DNA from: Microvirga aerilata
GTDB taxonomy: Bacteria > Pseudomonadota > Alphaproteobacteria > Rhizobiales > Beijerinckiaceae
Assembly: GCF_016743775.1 (NCBI RefSeq)
Contig: NZ_JAEQMY010000024.1
Span: forward strand, 1-64,000
Length of the DNA: 64,000 nt
Direction of reading: 5' to 3'
Positions 35,968-44,070 of this stretch are shown here, in pieces. The notes under the pieces were generated by a model. It was not told where the DNA came from and did not search any database. It saw only the letters and a list, made by a program, of their open reading frames with translations. A program made the translations under genes and the position numbers. Positions within the stretch are counted from its first letter, which is position 1; every line of letters begins with the position of its first letter.

Positions 35968-36771
35968 ATGGCCGGGCGTCTGAGCGGCAAAGCGGCCATC
36001 GTCTTCGGAGCCGGATCCTCGGGCCCCGGCTGGGGCAACGGCAAGGCCGCCGCCGTGGCCTATGCGCGCGAAGGCGCGCAGGTGGCGTGCGTGGATCTCG
36101 ACCAGGCGGCCGCGGACGAAACGGCATCCATCATCGAGCGCGAGGGCGGCCTTGCCGTCCCGATCGCGGCGGACGTGACCGGGATCGCCTCGATCGAGCA
36201 GGCCGTCGCGCAAAGCGTCGCGCAGTTCGGGCGCATCGACATCCTGCACAACAATGTCGGCGTGACCCATATGGGCGGCCCGGTCGAGCTCAGCGAGGAG
36301 CAGTTCGCCGCCGCGCTCGACTTGAACATCGGGCCGGTCTACCGCACCGCCAAAGCCGTCATCCCTCACATGCTGCAGCAGGGCGGCGGCGCGATCGTCA
36401 ACATCTCCTCGCTCGCGGCGATCCGGTGGACGGGCTATCCCTATTTCGCCTACTACGCCACGAAGGCCGCCGTGAACCAGGCCACCGTGGCGCTCGCGAT
36501 GCAGTATGCCCGGCAGGGGATCCGGGCCAACTGCATCATGCCGGGCCTCATCGACACGCCCCTGATCTACCGGCAGATCTCGGGCCAGTACGCCTCGGTG
36601 GAGGAGATGGTGGCGGCGCGCAATGCGGCCGTTCCTTTAGGCCGAATGGGAACGGCCTGGGATGTGGCCAATGCGGCTGTCTTCCTGGCCTCGGACGAGG
36701 CTCGGTTCATCACCGGCGTGTGCCTTCCGGTGGACGGCGGGCAGAGCTGCGCCGTATCCGAGTTCCACTGA
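35968..36771 (+). CDS. Short-chain dehydrogenase/reductase
   Basis: NAD(P)-dependent oxidoreductase of 267 residues. The cofactor loop is AIVFGAGSSGPGWGNGKAAA, a lengthened TGxxxGxG variant. DILHNNVGVTHMGG matches the NNAG position, and the catalytic set is Ser in NISSL with YYATK (YxxxK). The C-terminal FLASDEARFITGVCLPVDGG is typical. ATG 35968 has CGGAGAAG just upstream and is preferred over 35953. It lies between the TRAP operon and the PPC-domain gene, so it probably oxidises or reduces an intermediate of the same unknown pathway. Confidence 0.9.
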   Translation: MAGRLSGKAAIVFGAGSSGPGWGNGKAAAVAYAREGAQVACVDLDQAAADETASIIEREGGLAVPIAADVTGIASIEQAVAQSVAQFGRIDILHNNVGVTHMGGPVELSEEQFAAALDLNIGPVYRTAKAVIPHMLQQGGGAIVNISSLAAIRWTGYPYFAYYATKAAVNQATVALAMQYARQGIRANCIMPGLIDTPLIYRQISGQYASVEEMVAARNAAVPLGRMGTAWDVANAAVFLASDEARFITGVCLPVDGGQSCAVSEFH

Positions 36772-36810
36772 ACGGCTCGTTCGCCTTGCCGGAGCAAGCA
36801 GGAATCGATC

Positions 36811-37677
36811 ATGCGTCATATCCTTCATCCAGGCCCTGCCGCCCCGGAGCGCGTGACGACGGCCCTCGGCGCGCCGGTTCCTCTCCGCTTTGCTCTGGAG
36901 CCCGGCGATGCCGTCGAGGAGGCGATTGCCAGGGGGCTGGCCGCCTCGGGCTGCGCTGGCGGTTTCGTTTCCCTGCGGGGCGGCCGCTGTGAGCCGTTCC
37001 GCTATGTGATGCCCGCCGCCTCTCCCGATGCGGATCATGCCGCCTGGTACAGCGCGACGTTCGAGCCCGCGGGAGGCGTGGAGATCCTGCGCGCCGATGC
37101 CATCGTGGGCATTCGGGACGAAAAGCCGTTCATCCACTGCCATGGCATCTGGCAGACCGCCGACGGCCCGCGCATGGGCCACATGCTCGGGCCGGTCTCA
37201 ACGGTGGCGGAGCCCATAGACGTTCATGGGATCGGAGTGAGGGAGGCCACCTTCCGGGGCACGCCCGACCGGGAGACGAACTTTACCCTCTTCGAGCCGG
37301 TTCAGGCCGCCGAATACCGGGCCGGCAGGCCGGGCTCCCGCGCGCTGCTCGCGAAGGTTCGCCCGAACCAGGATATCGGCGTGGCCATCGAGGGGATCTG
37401 TTCGAGCCATGGGATCAGCCGGGCCAAAGTCCATGGCATCGGCAGCCTGAACGGCGTCCGGTTCACGGATGGAAGCCGGGTGGAGTCCCATGCAACCGAG
37501 GTCCTGATCCGGAACGGAATCGTGGAGACCGCAGGCGGCCGGTTGCAGACGCGGCTTGTGATCGATGTGGTCGACATGGAAGGAGCGATCTTCTCAGGCG
37601 AACTCGTTCACGGCGACAACCCGGTCTGCGTCACCTTCGAGCTCCTGATCGAGGTGCTGGAGGGCGGAGGCGTCTGA
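36811..37677 (+). CDS. Tandem PPC (DUF296) domain protein
   Basis: Protein of 288 residues that resembles two copies of the plant-and-prokaryote-conserved domain. The first half includes PFIHCHGIWQTADGPRMGHM, with the histidines placed as in metal-binding PPC proteins. The second half repeats the fold: VHGIGSLNGVRFTDG, then VDMEGAIFSGELVHGDNPVC. The histidine cluster is not kept in the second half. It is the last gene of the TRAP-SDR run, converging on the AI-2E-type gene. Most such proteins have no known biochemical role, so its link to catabolism is of interest. Confidence 0.75.
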   Translation: MRHILHPGPAAPERVTTALGAPVPLRFALEPGDAVEEAIARGLAASGCAGGFVSLRGGRCEPFRYVMPAASPDADHAAWYSATFEPAGGVEILRADAIVGIRDEKPFIHCHGIWQTADGPRMGHMLGPVSTVAEPIDVHGIGVREATFRGTPDRETNFTLFEPVQAAEYRAGRPGSRALLAKVRPNQDIGVAIEGICSSHGISRAKVHGIGSLNGVRFTDGSRVESHATEVLIRNGIVETAGGRLQTRLVIDVVDMEGAIFSGELVHGDNPVCVTFELLIEVLEGGGV

Positions 37678-37687
37678 GCTGTCGCCA

Positions 37688-40123
37688 TCACGATTGCCCG
37701 GCCCTGCCGGCGGCCTGCGTCGGCGCGAGATCCTCGCGAGCCGGGCTTTGCCCAGCTTCATGCTCGAGATCCGACATCAGCTCGTCCGCCATGTCCTGCA
37801 GGCGCCGGCGATCCTCTTCCGCGAACTCCCTGGGCTCCGTGTCGATGACGCATAGCGAGCCGATGGTGAGGCCTGAGGAGGTGCGCAGGGGCGCGCCGGC
37901 ATAGAAGCGAATGCCTTTTTCGAGCACGAGCGGGTTGTCGGCAAACCGCGGATCCTTGGACACGTCCTCCGCCACCACGACCTCGTCGGCCGCGACGACG
38001 TGGCCGCAGATGGACTCCTCCCTGGGCATGCGCCGGGTGGCGTTGAGATCCGCCGAGAGGCCGGTTGCCCCGGGCATGTGCTGGTGCTCCTCGTCGATCA
38101 GCGAAACGAGCCCGATGGGCGCATCGAAGGATTGGGCCACCCTCTGGGCCACCGCTTCGAAGCGAGGATGATGAGCCGAGTTGAGGCCCAGCCGTTGAAG
38201 GGCGGAGAGCCGCTCGTGCTCCTCGTCCAAAAGGGCTGGCGCGTTCTCCGCTGCCTTTCCGTCGCGAGACACCCAGCCTTCCACTTGGCTCACGCAGTTC
38301 TCCAGGGACACGATGGCCGCATCGGCCCCCATCTGCCGGGTCATGTCCTCGGCCTGGCCTGCGTGAGGCGGTGCGTTCCAGCAGCAAACCACGAGCTTCA
38401 GGTGGGGTGCGCGTCGCCGGAGACGACGGCAGATGTAGCGGGCGAACACCTGGGGCTGAGGGTGCAGATAGGACAGGCACACAACCTCCACTCCGGTCAG
38501 ATCGAGCTGGCCCAACGCGCCTTCGCTGATGGAGATCGGCGGCAGGACGCGCGCTCCGATGCCGGTTTCCTGCAGAACCTGCGCGAGCATCTCGGCGGCT
38601 GCACGGTCGAGTTCCGTGCGGCCGGCGATGCACAGGACCGGAGTTCCCTCCACCGCATTCGCCGGATAGGACCCCTCGTCGCCTTCGTCGTTCTTGGAAC
38701 GCGATGCCTTCTCCTGAATGTGGTCCGCCACCTCCCGCACCACGCATGTGGCCGTGCTTGCCACGAGGCGGCGGTAGTTGGTGTCCGTGGTGCTGCGCTG
38801 ACGGTCGTTTTCCGCCAGGCGCAGGGCCGGTATGGCCACGTGGTCGTAGAACTCCCGGGAGGAGTGCTCGTCCACGTAATCCTCGGCGATCTCGACGGCC
38901 TCTTCGAGATTGCCGGCGAGCAGCCTTTGGTACAGGCGCTCCTCCGGCGCCAGCACGGGATCGCTGCCGAGGAGGACACCCAAGAATTCGAGCTGCGGCA
39001 CATAGCGGCCGATCACCACGAGGCAGACCGTCAGGGGCGTGGCGAGAAACAGCCCGACCGGTCCCCACAAGGTGGTCCAGAAGATGGCCGCCATGATGAT
39101 CGCAAGCGAGGACAGGCCGGTGCTGGAGCCGTAGAGCCAAGGCTCGATGACGTTGTTGCTGATGAGCTCGGCGAGAAGAAACAGGCCGATGACCCACAGC
39201 AGCATCGACCAGCCCGGGTCGACCGCGAAGGCAAGCGCGATGGGAAAGGTCGCGGCCAGGAAGGGGCCCAGATAGGGCACGAAGCGCAGCACCGCCGCCA
39301 GCAAGCCCCACAGCACCGCATTGGGAATGCCGATGAAGTACAGGGCGATGCCGATCGGAACCCCATAGGTGAGGTTCACCACGAGCTGCATCAGCAGGTA
39401 GCGGCTGACCCGCGCCGCTGCGTCGTTGAGCGCCTGCGTGCTCTTCTGAAGATCGCCGGCACCGGCCAGCTTGATGAAGCGATCTCGCAAATCCTCCTGT
39501 TCGAGCAGAATGAAGATCACGAAAATGATGATCAAGCCGGCGGTGGCCAGCGGTGCGAGAAGGGGGCCGACGATGGTTTGGATGATCTCGAGCGGCTGGG
39601 ATTCCGGACGCTCCAGCCTGACCGTCACAGGCTCCTGCGGCGCAGCCGGGGAGCCAAGAGCCGCGCCAGCCTGCCTGGCCGCATTGTCGGTGGCCTTGTC
39701 GGCTCCTGAGATTTCCTTGCTCAGGTCCTGAATGGTTGTGGTGACCTTGTCCACGACCCCGCCTCCCGGGGCGGAGGACTGCAGGCCTCGGATTTTCTCC
39801 GTAATGGTGGTCTGATAGCTCGGCAGGTTGTTGGCGAGCTGCACGAGCTGGCGGCCGACCACGTAGGTGAGGCCTCCGATCAGGATGAACGCCAGGGTCA
39901 CGGCGATCAGCACCGCAGCGATGCGCGGAAGCCTCAGCCGCCGAAGCCGATTGACGAGCGGGGTCACCGCGAAGCTGAGGAGAATGCCGACCGCGAAGGG
40001 AATGAAGATGTCCCGGCCGAAATAAAGCCCGCCGATCGCCAGGACCACGCCGCCGGCCGTCAGGAGCGAGGAGCCCGCCGGCGGCGAGGCAGGCGGGAGC
40101 GGGGGTGGCGCCGGGTCGGCCAT
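37688..40123 (-). CDS. AI-2E family permease fused to Rossmann-like and GAF domains
   Basis: Protein of 811 residues. Residues about 15-375 are an AI-2E/PerM-type permease with paired helices at the start (FIPFAVGILLSFAVTPLVNR) and AAVLRFVPYLGPFLAATFPI. A soluble part follows. Residues about 376-500 are helical, and about 500-600 read like a Rossmann/B12-binding fold without its His motif (VVCLSYLHPQPQVFARYICR). Residues about 638-790 are a GAF domain (APIGLVSLIDEEHQHMPG, SICGHVVAADEVVVAEDV, GSLCVIDTEPREF). Such a sensor fused to an exporter-like permease is unusual. The ligand and transported molecule are unknown. It is a single gene, divergent from a phosphodiesterase. Confidence 0.85.
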   Translation of the reverse strand: MADPAPPPLPPASPPAGSSLLTAGGVVLAIGGLYFGRDIFIPFAVGILLSFAVTPLVNRLRRLRLPRIAAVLIAVTLAFILIGGLTYVVGRQLVQLANNLPSYQTTITEKIRGLQSSAPGGGVVDKVTTTIQDLSKEISGADKATDNAARQAGAALGSPAAPQEPVTVRLERPESQPLEIIQTIVGPLLAPLATAGLIIIFVIFILLEQEDLRDRFIKLAGAGDLQKSTQALNDAAARVSRYLLMQLVVNLTYGVPIGIALYFIGIPNAVLWGLLAAVLRFVPYLGPFLAATFPIALAFAVDPGWSMLLWVIGLFLLAELISNNVIEPWLYGSSTGLSSLAIIMAAIFWTTLWGPVGLFLATPLTVCLVVIGRYVPQLEFLGVLLGSDPVLAPEERLYQRLLAGNLEEAVEIAEDYVDEHSSREFYDHVAIPALRLAENDRQRSTTDTNYRRLVASTATCVVREVADHIQEKASRSKNDEGDEGSYPANAVEGTPVLCIAGRTELDRAAAEMLAQVLQETGIGARVLPPISISEGALGQLDLTGVEVVCLSYLHPQPQVFARYICRRLRRRAPHLKLVVCCWNAPPHAGQAEDMTRQMGADAAIVSLENCVSQVEGWVSRDGKAAENAPALLDEEHERLSALQRLGLNSAHHPRFEAVAQRVAQSFDAPIGLVSLIDEEHQHMPGATGLSADLNATRRMPREESICGHVVAADEVVVAEDVSKDPRFADNPLVLEKGIRFYAGAPLRTSSGLTIGSLCVIDTEPREFAEEDRRRLQDMADELMSDLEHEAGQSPAREDLAPTQAAGRAGQS

Positions 40124-40323
40124 CTGTGGGACCTTGCAGTTAAGTTACGATGAGGACAACTCGTCACCGGCCCGTTGGATCCTGGGTGGGGATTGTGCTT
40201 TCATCCCTCCGGGCCCGCGAAGACGAGCGCCCGAACGTCAGGCTTGTGGGTCCGTTTCCTGCCGGTCCGGTCATCACAGCGTCACAGAACCGCTGGTAGG
40301 CGGCAGCTCTAGGAGGAATGTAC

Positions 40324-41472
40324 ATGAAGCATCTTGCAATTCTCGGAACATTGGCCGCTTCCGTGTCCGGATTGATCGCGCCGGCCCTGGCGCAGGAGAA
40401 GACCCTGACAGGCGAGCGCACGATCGTGGTCGCCCATCGCGGCGCCAGCGGCTACCTTCCCGAGCACACCCTCGAGGCCTACAAGATGGCCATCGACATG
40501 GGCGCCGATTTCATCGAGCCGGATCTCGTGGTGACGAAGGACGGCGTGCTGATCGCCCGTCATGAGCCCATGCTCAGCGGCACGACCAATGTGGCGGACC
40601 TTCCCCAGTTCGCATCGCGCAAAACCACCCGCAAGGTGGACGGAGTGGACACCACGGACTGGTTCGCCGGCGACTTCACCCTGGCCGAGATCAAGCAGCT
40701 TCGCGCCAAGCAGGCGATGTCCGACCGCGACCAGTCGAAGAACGGCCAATACCAGGTTCCCACCCTGCAGGAGGTCATCGACCTTGCGAAGAAAGAGGCA
40801 GGCGCGCGTGGGCGGGCCGTTGGGATCGCCCCCGAGACCAAGCACTCGACGTTCCATGCGGCACTGGGCCTTCCCATCGAGGATCGGCTGGTGACCGTTC
40901 TGAAGGAGGCGGGCTGGGCCGAGGCTTCGTCCCCGGTGGTGATCCAGAGCTTCGAGGTCGCCAACCTGAAATATCTGAACACCAGGATCGACGTGAAGCT
41001 GGCGCAGCTGCTCGATGCCGAGGACGTGGACAAGGATGGGAACATCGTTCTCAACGCTCCCTATGCGCAGCCCTACGACTTCGTGGTCATCGGCGACAAG
41101 CGCACCTACAAGGACCTTCTGACCAAGGAGGGGCTGGCCGAGGTCAAGAGCTATGCCGACATCCTGGCTCCCTGGAAGCCGTACATTCTTCCGAGCAAGC
41201 AGGTGGATCAGAACGGCGACGGCAAGGCGGACGATCTCAACGGCGATGGAAAGGCCGATGAGCAGGACCGCGTTCTCGCACCGGCGACCAGCGTCGTGAA
41301 GGACGCCCACGCGGCAGGCCTCCAGGTCTTCACCTGGACCTTCCGCAACGAGCCCAAGCGCCTCGCCTCATCCTTCAAGGGCGATCCGGCGGCTGAATAC
41401 AAGGCGTTCTACGCTCTTGGCGTCGATGGCCTCTTCAGCGACTTTCCCGACACCGCCGTAAAAGCGCGCTAG
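40324..41472 (+). CDS. glpQ: Periplasmic glycerophosphodiester phosphodiesterase
   Basis: Secreted GlpQ-type enzyme of 382 residues that hydrolyses glycerophosphodiesters to glycerol-3-phosphate and an alcohol. The signal peptide is LAILGTLAASVSGLIAPALA. Catalytic motifs are VVAHRGASGYLPEHT, FIEPDLV and ARHEP. Near residues 298-318 two calcium-loop-like repeats occur (DQNGDGKADD and LNGDGKADEQDR), an insertion resembling EF-hand/dockerin loops. ATG 40324 follows AGGAGG by seven bases. A strong terminator closes the gene. Confidence 0.9.
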   Translation: MKHLAILGTLAASVSGLIAPALAQEKTLTGERTIVVAHRGASGYLPEHTLEAYKMAIDMGADFIEPDLVVTKDGVLIARHEPMLSGTTNVADLPQFASRKTTRKVDGVDTTDWFAGDFTLAEIKQLRAKQAMSDRDQSKNGQYQVPTLQEVIDLAKKEAGARGRAVGIAPETKHSTFHAALGLPIEDRLVTVLKEAGWAEASSPVVIQSFEVANLKYLNTRIDVKLAQLLDAEDVDKDGNIVLNAPYAQPYDFVVIGDKRTYKDLLTKEGLAEVKSYADILAPWKPYILPSKQVDQNGDGKADDLNGDGKADEQDRVLAPATSVVKDAHAAGLQVFTWTFRNEPKRLASSFKGDPAAEYKAFYALGVDGLFSDFPDTAVKAR

Positions 41473-41491
41473 TCCCAGGCGGTCGCATCGG

Positions 41492-41527
41492 CAAAGGCCC
41501 GGCAGACGTCGTTCCGCCGGGCCTTTG
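41492..41527 (+). terminator. Terminator after glpQ
   Basis: A perfect 12-bp stem (CAAAGGCCCGGC with GCCGGGCCTTTG) closes a 12-base loop, 19 bases after the glpQ stop. The 3' arm ends in CCTTTGCTTTG, a modest T-rich tail. Confidence 0.75.
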
Positions 41528-42927: not shown

Positions 42928-44070
42928 ATGCTACGGCTATCAGTCGTTTCCATCGTCGCCATCGCACTGCTGTCGGCTCAGCCCCTTCTGGCCAAGGGCG
43001 GCGGAGGCAATGGTGGAGGCGGTCAGGGGAATGGCAATGGCGGCGGAGACAAGGGAGGCGGGAACGGCGGCGACAAGGGTGGTGGCGACAAGGGCGGTGG
43101 CGACAAGGGGGGCGGTGACAAGGGTGGTGACAGGGGCGGCGGCAAAGGTGGCGACAGAGGCGGCGGCACTGGCGGCGGCGGTGGCAGCCAGGGCAGCGGT
43201 AACAGCGGAAGTGGCAGCCAGGGCAGCAGCGGTAATAGCGGCGGTGGCAACCAAGGCAACGGTGGTGGAAAGGCCGGAGGCGGCAGCAATCAAGGGAATG
43301 GAAGCAGCGGGAGCAGCAGGGGGGGTGGAAGCACGGGGGATAGCGGACAGGGAGCCGGGGGCGGCCAAGGGAAAGGGAGCAGCGGCAACACGTCGGGAGG
43401 CGGCAGCGCCGGCAGAGGTGCCGGGGGCGCTGCCGGCACAAGCAGTCAGAACAGCAGCAACACCAGCGAACGATCCAGAGGAGCATCGGGGTCGGCCCCT
43501 GCATCGGCCCCTACATCGGCGCCTGGAAGAGCAGACACGGCAGGCAGCGCAGCCTCGCGGGCAGCACCGTCCGCTGCAGGCGCACAGGCAGCGCCAGCCG
43601 CTGCAACCTCGCGGCCCGCACCGGCTGCCGCAAGCCCACAGGCAGCGCCAGCGCCCGCAAGCGCGCGGGCTGTGCCTGCTGCTGCACCCGCAGCCGTAAC
43701 AGCGGCTCCGGCCTCGCTCGGCATCAGAGGGGGCAGCGCCGCCTTGAGCCTGCCGCGTTCCCTCATGCCCCGCCTGGAGGCATCAGGATCCGCCACGGCC
43801 GGCTTCATGGACCCCGCGTTTCGGCAGGCCGCTCCCACAGGCAGGTTCGTCCAGGCCTGCCGCGCCTCCATCGCGGCGGCAGCGCTCCCCTATGGGGCCG
43901 TGCAGGTGGACGCAGCCAGTGCCGGACAGGCGAGCCGCACGCAGGATGGAGGGCTCACGGCTCCCATTTCGGTAAGGGTCATTTACGCCCGGGCGAATGC
44001 ACGCCAGGTCCGCCAGTCGCGCGTGGCGTGCCAGCTCGACGCAACCGGCGCAGTCGTGGCCCTGCGCTGA
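42928..44070 (+). CDS. Secreted glycine-rich repeat protein
   Basis: Unrecognised protein of 380 residues. The signal peptide is LSVVSIVAIALLSAQPLLAK. Residues about 24-170 are glycine-rich with GGGDKGGGDKGG-type repeats, then serine/glycine/asparagine. Residues about 185-265 are alanine/proline-rich. A folded C-terminal domain of about 100 residues begins at LSLPRSLMPRLEAS and has two cysteines (VQACRAS and RVACQLD), likely a disulfide. GGAGG precedes the ATG. The composition suggests a surface or matrix protein. The LSLPR motif is shared with the upstream gene. Confidence 0.7.
   Translation: MLRLSVVSIVAIALLSAQPLLAKGGGGNGGGGQGNGNGGGDKGGGNGGDKGGGDKGGGDKGGGDKGGDRGGGKGGDRGGGTGGGGGSQGSGNSGSGSQGSSGNSGGGNQGNGGGKAGGGSNQGNGSSGSSRGGGSTGDSGQGAGGGQGKGSSGNTSGGGSAGRGAGGAAGTSSQNSSNTSERSRGASGSAPASAPTSAPGRADTAGSAASRAAPSAAGAQAAPAAATSRPAPAAASPQAAPAPASARAVPAAAPAAVTAAPASLGIRGGSAALSLPRSLMPRLEASGSATAGFMDPAFRQAAPTGRFVQACRASIAAAALPYGAVQVDAASAGQASRTQDGGLTAPISVRVIYARANARQVRQSRVACQLDATGAVVALR
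43073..43147 (+). repeat. Tandem 15-base coding repeat
   Basis: About five imperfect copies of a GGTGGCGACAAGGGC unit lie head to tail, encoding Gly-Gly-Asp-Lys-Gly. Copies differ mainly at third positions. The last carries Asp-Arg instead of Asp-Lys. Such an array is prone to length change by slippage. Confidence 0.7.

Follow-up and report, generated by a model that had tools for sequence, protein, structure and literature searches.

The window, a 64,000-nucleotide stretch of the Microvirga aerilata genome, carries on the complement of positions 37688-40123 a single uninterrupted open reading frame that begins with ATG and encodes 811 amino acids. It converges on a PCC-domain gene and is transcribed divergently from a GDPD gene. 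Its features, all on the minus strand, are these:

37688..40123, minus strand: whole 811-aa gene, AI-2E permease with a cobalamin-binding-like module and a GAF domain (open reading frame and Pfam)
38969..40069, minus strand: membrane domain of AI-2E/TqsA type, residues 19-385 (PF01594, E 3.6e-49; TqsA 7nb6, sequence match E 6.3e-28, fold match E 2.4e-11)
38684..38962, minus strand: helical cap, B12-binding_2-like, residues 388-480 (sub-threshold PF02607, E 0.0036; AlphaFold helices; fold match covering both halves)
38258..38644, minus strand: Rossmann half, B12-binding-like, cobalt ligand lost, residues 494-622 (PF02310 in relatives; profile and fold alignments)
38606..38608, minus strand: codon of Asp506, at the position of the cobalt-ligating His of B12 domains (invariant in 55/55; register from two profile alignments)
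37754..38230, minus strand: GAF domain, residues 632-790 (PF01590, E 3.2e-16 at 654-782; 4zmu, E 1.6e-21 over 637-776)
40155..40182, minus strand: EcfG-like promoter element GGATC-N16-AGTT(GTC) (31 bases from the end of the element to the ATG; consensus in PMC6599016)

The identity of the domains is well supported, and we hold it with high confidence. The Pfam model AI-2E_transport (PF01594) scores 168.1 bits against a curated cut-off of 34.3, and the GAF model (PF01590) scores 60.5 bits against 22.4. About 426 soluble residues follow the membrane domain, some 235 of them ahead of the GAF domain, and a sub-threshold B12-binding_2 hint lies between the two. This agrees with the sequence-only reading of the locus, which had described an AI-2E-type permease followed by some 430 soluble residues and a clear GAF domain. 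No NCBIfam model exceeded its cut-off for the 811-aa protein. The full-length AlphaFold model has a mean pLDDT of 82.4 and a pTM of 0.60, which leaves the mutual placement of the domains uncertain. Foldseek matched this model to TqsA 7nb6 (E 2.4e-11), to 4zmu over the GAF domain (E 1.8e-9) and to CarH 5c8f (E 3.1e-5). TqsA of E. coli (PDB 7nb6) resembles the window protein in membrane fold and in sequence, but is a 344-residue chain without any extension.

The AI-2E family name is a misleading quorum-sensing label. LuxS (PF02664) was found in none of 41 genomes, the host's own included, by a search that recovered it in 5 of 14 controls. Quorum-signal export was rejected on this ground, the host's own AI-2 is an unlikely substrate, and gating by a quorum signal, which the sequence-only reading had allowed, is not favoured. 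The group of AI-2E proteins that act as Na+/H+ antiporters has a signature that includes D251, R292 and R293 (PMC7221264). Membership in that group was rejected as well, as D251 corresponds to R280, R292-R293 to N323-N324 and K298 to W329 when the protein is compared with the consensus by eye; the signature residues Q217 (Q246 here) and E296 (E327) are kept.

The segment between the membrane domain and the GAF domain is well supported, by its predicted structure and by profile comparisons, as a helical cap and Rossmann pair of the cobalamin-photoreceptor type (residues 388-622), the type of photocobilin, AppA SCHIC, AerR and CarH. The earlier description of a Rossmann-like domain had not resolved this arrangement. 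Modeled alone, residues 386-622 reach a pLDDT of 92.7 and a pTM of 0.90. When Foldseek's 1000 best matches were compared with the module in VIA-align, photocobilin 8j2y (Z 18.7, 3.3 A, 204 residues) and AppA SCHIC 4heh (Z 17.5, 3.3 A, 198 residues) stood ahead of MetH 1bmt (Z 15.5, 3.8 A, 214 residues), AerR 7te2 (Z 15.0, 4.9 A, 198 residues) and the CarH domain 8c36 (Z 13.2, 3.2 A, 183 residues). Because the receiver domain 3nns, too, scored Z 12.5 (111 residues), a match confined to the Rossmann half has no discriminating power; that comes from the coverage of both halves. The likeness to AppA SCHIC, AerR, photocobilin and CarH takes in cap and Rossmann half over nearly the whole module; unlike the modules of those proteins, the one in the window is attached to a membrane transporter.

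Sequence profiles point the same way with varying strength. Residues 388-615 were scanned in each of 20 relatives separately; at E up to 1, PF02310 was detected in nine (best 8.4e-8) and PF02607 in nine (best 4.7e-4). The window's own module had no PF02310 match and stayed below the PF02607 cut-off (17.9 bits against 23, E 0.0036), and C354, one of the four copies in the same genome, exceeds the curated PF02310 cut-off (33.7 against 32.1 bits). The module profile aligned end to end with eight AerR/PpaA-like proteins over 204 columns (E 5.6e-5, probability 66%, global 79%). That label is our own, assigned by motif and length: of 13 fetched regions, the eight with [DE]xHxxG (L210-L217) were used and L218-L222 were dropped. 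Against MetH and mutase domains, a 113-column alignment crossed the Asp506 stretch at a probability of 36%, and another, at 61%, began after that stretch. An earlier comparison of profiles, made with four unsuitable B12 sequences, produced no match (probability 1.3%), and the module profile searched against PDB sequences returned a chance match alone, CENP-S at E 2.5. Corrinoid binding is a candidate function of the module.

Cobalamin-binding domains carry the motif DxHxxG, whose His is the cobalt ligand, and CarH has a Trp in its cap. Further parts of the B12 motif are SxL and GG. The His ligand is absent. In its place is Asp506, invariant in 55 of 55 aligned rows. Both profile alignments (MetH/mutase and AerR/PpaA-like) match it to the cobalt-ligating His, and residues 495 to 521 are aligned free of gaps in both. 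Residues 500-512 of the window protein contain no His at all, and two of the 55 rows (L063, L069) have one, at 507. Leu553 is kept in 50/55 rows and Ser551 in 24/55, and at the place of the GG motif in the AerR/PpaA-like alignment Gly occurs in 10/55 rows at 580 and is outside the six commonest residues at 581. The helical cap (residues 388-480) is without Trp, a comparison with CarH made by composition rather than residue by residue. PMC9144470 describes the role of the His in cobalt ligation and places the heme His of SCHIC two residues away from the B12 His; AerR and SCHIC keep a His ligand, whereas neither form is present in residues 500-512 here.

Other residues of the module are conserved nearly as strictly. 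Arg502 is found in 51/55 rows, and R566, R567, D440 and R443 are also near-invariant; together with the invariant Asp506 they suggest a specific site. Such a site argues against the idea that the extension is a structural or oligomerisation platform alone, with no regulatory ligand. That idea would account for the lost cobalt ligand and for the many relatives that have no further domain, and we consider it very improbable.

The fusion of an AI-2E transporter with a module of this type is already in print. HaAI-2E (WP_052573826), the closest relative with experimental binding results, consists of an AI-2E domain, a cobalamin-binding domain and a diguanylate cyclase (PMC11796333). It shares with the window protein the AI-2E domain, a CarH-like cobalamin-binding domain in which another residue stands in for the cobalt His, and a third soluble domain. 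The third domain is a diguanylate cyclase in HaAI-2E and a GAF domain in the window protein, and the His is replaced by Arg in the former (PMC11796333) and by Asp506 in the latter in our alignments. HaAI-2E bound hydroxocobalamin only, leaving adenosyl- and methylcobalamin unbound, and is called light-independent by its authors (PMC11796333). The loss of the His therefore does not show a loss of corrinoid binding. Our literature searches of open-licence papers found no published GAF-tailed form and no family-wide loss of the His; the phrase "AI-2E family transporter" was never paired with "GAF domain" in those papers, and its pairing with "B12-binding domain" gave an unrelated use alone. Such fusions, which extend across rhizobia and related bacteria, are almost unstudied.

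Even with no axial His, the module might still bind a tetrapyrrole, be it a corrinoid or another, and so make the transporter sensitive to light, to redox state or to the level of the cofactor. Photocobilins and AppA SCHIC are the best fold matches of the module, and the hydroxocobalamin bound by the HaAI-2E domain (PMC11796333) is in line with such a function. Set against these are the Asp at the His position in every row, the scarcity of Gly at 580 and 581, and the selectivity and light independence that the same source ascribes to HaAI-2E. On balance we think this unlikely.

The combination of permease and module is, judging from the genomes searched, common. Eighteen of the 36 congeneric genomes carry a full-length relative of 74-82% identity (E 0), interrupted by one stop codon each in G018 and G020; in a further genome, G004, pieces of the gene lie at contig ends. 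All 36 congeneric genomes have a paralogue of 41-48% identity whose match ends before the GAF domain. Four copies are present in the genome of the window, two with a GAF domain (C166, C360) and two without (C338, C354). Counting this genome, the module was found in 16/289 genomes of the class and in 30/398 of the phylum, scattered over many alphaproteobacterial families and beyond; weak partial matches were dropped from both counts, G270 from the first and 20 of 50 matching genomes (E 8e-5 to 9e-4) from the second. Many of those 20 weak matches to the module profile lie in open reading frames of about 430 aa.

Named relatives were collected with two membrane-domain motifs, and of the 562 that were confirmed, the 80 most similar to an extension-bearing query make up the set; it is hence no survey of the AI-2E family. 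Among these 80 are Microvirga, Bradyrhizobium, Rhizobium, Sinorhizobium, Mesorhizobium, Noviherbaspirillum and others. In 79 of these best 80 the protein has at least 603 aa, and the 80th is interrupted by a contig end. The sequence-only reading held that permeases of this family usually end after the membrane domain, which is true of E. coli TqsA but not of the present clade. Plasmid sequences gave 206 matching records with E no higher than 1e-60 (75 of Sinorhizobium, 57 of Rhizobium), and in 11 of them the match spans at least 80% of the query; all 11 are annotated just as "AI-2E family transporter". The architecture, which that reading would have set aside if it proved common and already characterised, is thus common, but the characterisation in print extends to just one relative with a different tail.

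The tail after the module varies. The GAF domain of the window protein is of the same kind as that of 4zmu (Dcsbis), although the latter is part of a diguanylate cyclase and the former part of a transporter; the sequence search matched 4zmu to residues 637-776 (E 1.6e-21). Among the best 80 of 562 relatives, 16 have a tail of GAF length that aligns with the GAF domain of the window, and all four tails scanned with Pfam (L063, L073, L096, L128) are GAF domains. In 12/16 rows GAF is less conserved than any of the other three domains. Its identity to the window's copy is 48-70% in the rows from Microvirga and Bradyrhizobium, where the membrane domain reaches 75-92%, and thirty GAF positions are conserved in 16 or more of the 17 rows. 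Cys706-Gly-His708 was rejected as a GAF cofactor site, as Cys and His are both kept in 9/17 rows. We built a tree of 131 rows (129 different; six duplicate rows left out) by a quick method. GAF is present in 24 rows and SpoIIE in one, and most rows are without a tail. The GAF domain needs four changes on this tree, with 23 of the 24 GAF rows in one clade of 25 (SH-aLRT 98); L116 and L048 lie inside that clade without a GAF domain, and L128 has one outside it. By these comparisons, transporter and module form the wider core and GAF is a lineage-specific tail. This split went unnoticed in the sequence-only reading, as did the kinship of the middle module and the loss of its cobalt ligand.

Relative L046 (652-3339, minus strand) has a SpoIIE-type phosphatase in place of the GAF domain, and HaAI-2E has a diguanylate cyclase there (PMC11796333). 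Output enzymes at the tail position would suit a receptor better than a gated transporter. The protein may thus be a membrane receptor, or "transceptor", whose AI-2E domain senses a ligand or the state of the membrane and whose B12-type module relays what is sensed to the tail, be it GAF, SpoIIE or diguanylate cyclase, or else to partner proteins, with little or no transport. AppA SCHIC, which acts by binding a partner protein (PMC9144470), offers a precedent for the latter. However, most members have no tail, and the membrane domain keeps many invariant positions in the alignment of relatives, as in a working permease. We regard the receptor as a tentative alternative, possible but doubtful.

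The promoter region offers a possible link to the general stress response. The motif built for EcfG of S. melonis is GGAAC-N17-20-GTT, and its target table includes GGATC forms (PMC6599016). The strict form GGAAC-N16/17-CGTT lies upstream of 9 of the best 80 of 562 relatives compared with 8/475 other open reading frames (p 1.6e-4, for relatives that are not independent and controls that are mechanical). All nine are among the 64 named loci without GAF; none is found at the 16 named GAF loci, the 21 congeneric GAF copies or the 13 congeneric paralogues. A loosened form, GGAWC-N16/17-[CA]GTT, precedes 19/21 congeneric GAF copies, 12/13 congeneric paralogues, 14/64 named non-GAF loci and 8/16 named GAF loci, compared with 13/475 control open reading frames. 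This form was drawn after inspection of the GGATC sites of the congeneric sequences and is post hoc for those genes, their orthologous upstream regions are not independent, and the named GAF rows partly repeat the congeneric genomes. At 43 further loci (order, class and phylum), not counted before, the strict form occurred at 4 and the loosened form at 8. With wider spacing, GGAAC-N15-18-CGTT was found within 300 bases of 11/81 loci, 42/4000 random pieces and 21/4050 shuffled sequences. The element at 40155-40182 of the window (minus strand), GGATC-N16-AGTTGTC, is a conserved EcfG-like variant.

Transcription of the gene from an EcfG-type general-stress promoter would fit these counts and is supported, partly post hoc. 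The second GAF copy of the same genome lacks even the loosened site. A scan of that genome found the GAF-type site at one place and a looser version at two, and the paralogue-type pattern at 8 places, one of which precedes paralogue C338, against 2 in the control, a ratio that defines no regulon. NepR gave seven matches over the cut-off in the same genome.

In our preferred model the protein is an AI-2E-family transporter of the inner membrane, induced by stress, and its activity would be set from the cytoplasm by a re-purposed B12-type module and a GAF domain. We give this model about an even chance, and gating from the inside, as a part of it, much the same. The gene would be induced from the EcfG-type general-stress promoter, and the soluble domains would lie in the cytoplasm. 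The cap/Rossmann pair may then change its conformation or assembly state in response to a ligand that is not a His-ligated corrinoid, or the trigger could be a protein partner, as PpsR is for AppA SCHIC. This change would open or close the transporter, with the GAF tail as a lineage-specific second input or dimeriser. The shared fold, itself read from a predicted structure, says nothing on gating, and the direction, substrate and ligand of the transporter are inferred, in contrast to the well-supported identity of its domains. The sequence-only proposal of a ligand-regulated transporter or a membrane sensor is, in either form, plausible.

In many soil and plant-associated bacteria, a membrane transporter is thus fused to a sensor fold known from light-responsive gene regulators. 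Gating of transport by the module, should it occur, would put the B12-photoreceptor fold to a new use. It is tempting to speculate further that the module senses a tetrapyrrole or redox state from the cytoplasm, with the conserved Asp in place of the His and the GAF domain as second input, and that a stress-controlled, ligand-gated family lies under the AI-2E name across rhizobia and their relatives; we consider this full version unlikely. These ideas are directly testable, given the invariant Asp506 and the copies in the tractable species S. meliloti.

A conserved operon was rejected, as ten queries from neighbours in the window gave just two 33% SDR matches at the 80 named loci. No RNA element exceeded its gathering score in 36700-41500. 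The second GAF copy of the genome (L225 3739-10016) adjoins a PAS-HisKA_2/HWE kinase gene in convergent orientation; some 2.5 kb further is an open reading frame with NepR and sigma-70 region 2 matches, overlapped by an IS91-type transposase gene. In raw counts, this sigma factor recurs at 3 of the 80 named loci (L062, L066 and L067, within 3.5 kb) and the catalytic part of the kinase at 9; a NepR query found none at these 80 loci. The commonest neighbour at L060-L139 is a histidine-kinase-like family, as read from one member, at 17 of the 80 loci, again a raw count. Elsewhere in the window, positions 42928-44070 (plus strand) encode a 380-aa glycine-, serine- and alanine-rich reading frame without a Pfam match. 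The divergent gene at 40318-41472 (plus strand) encodes a GDPD-family phosphodiesterase with an insert of repeated NGDGKAD letters that resemble calcium sites.
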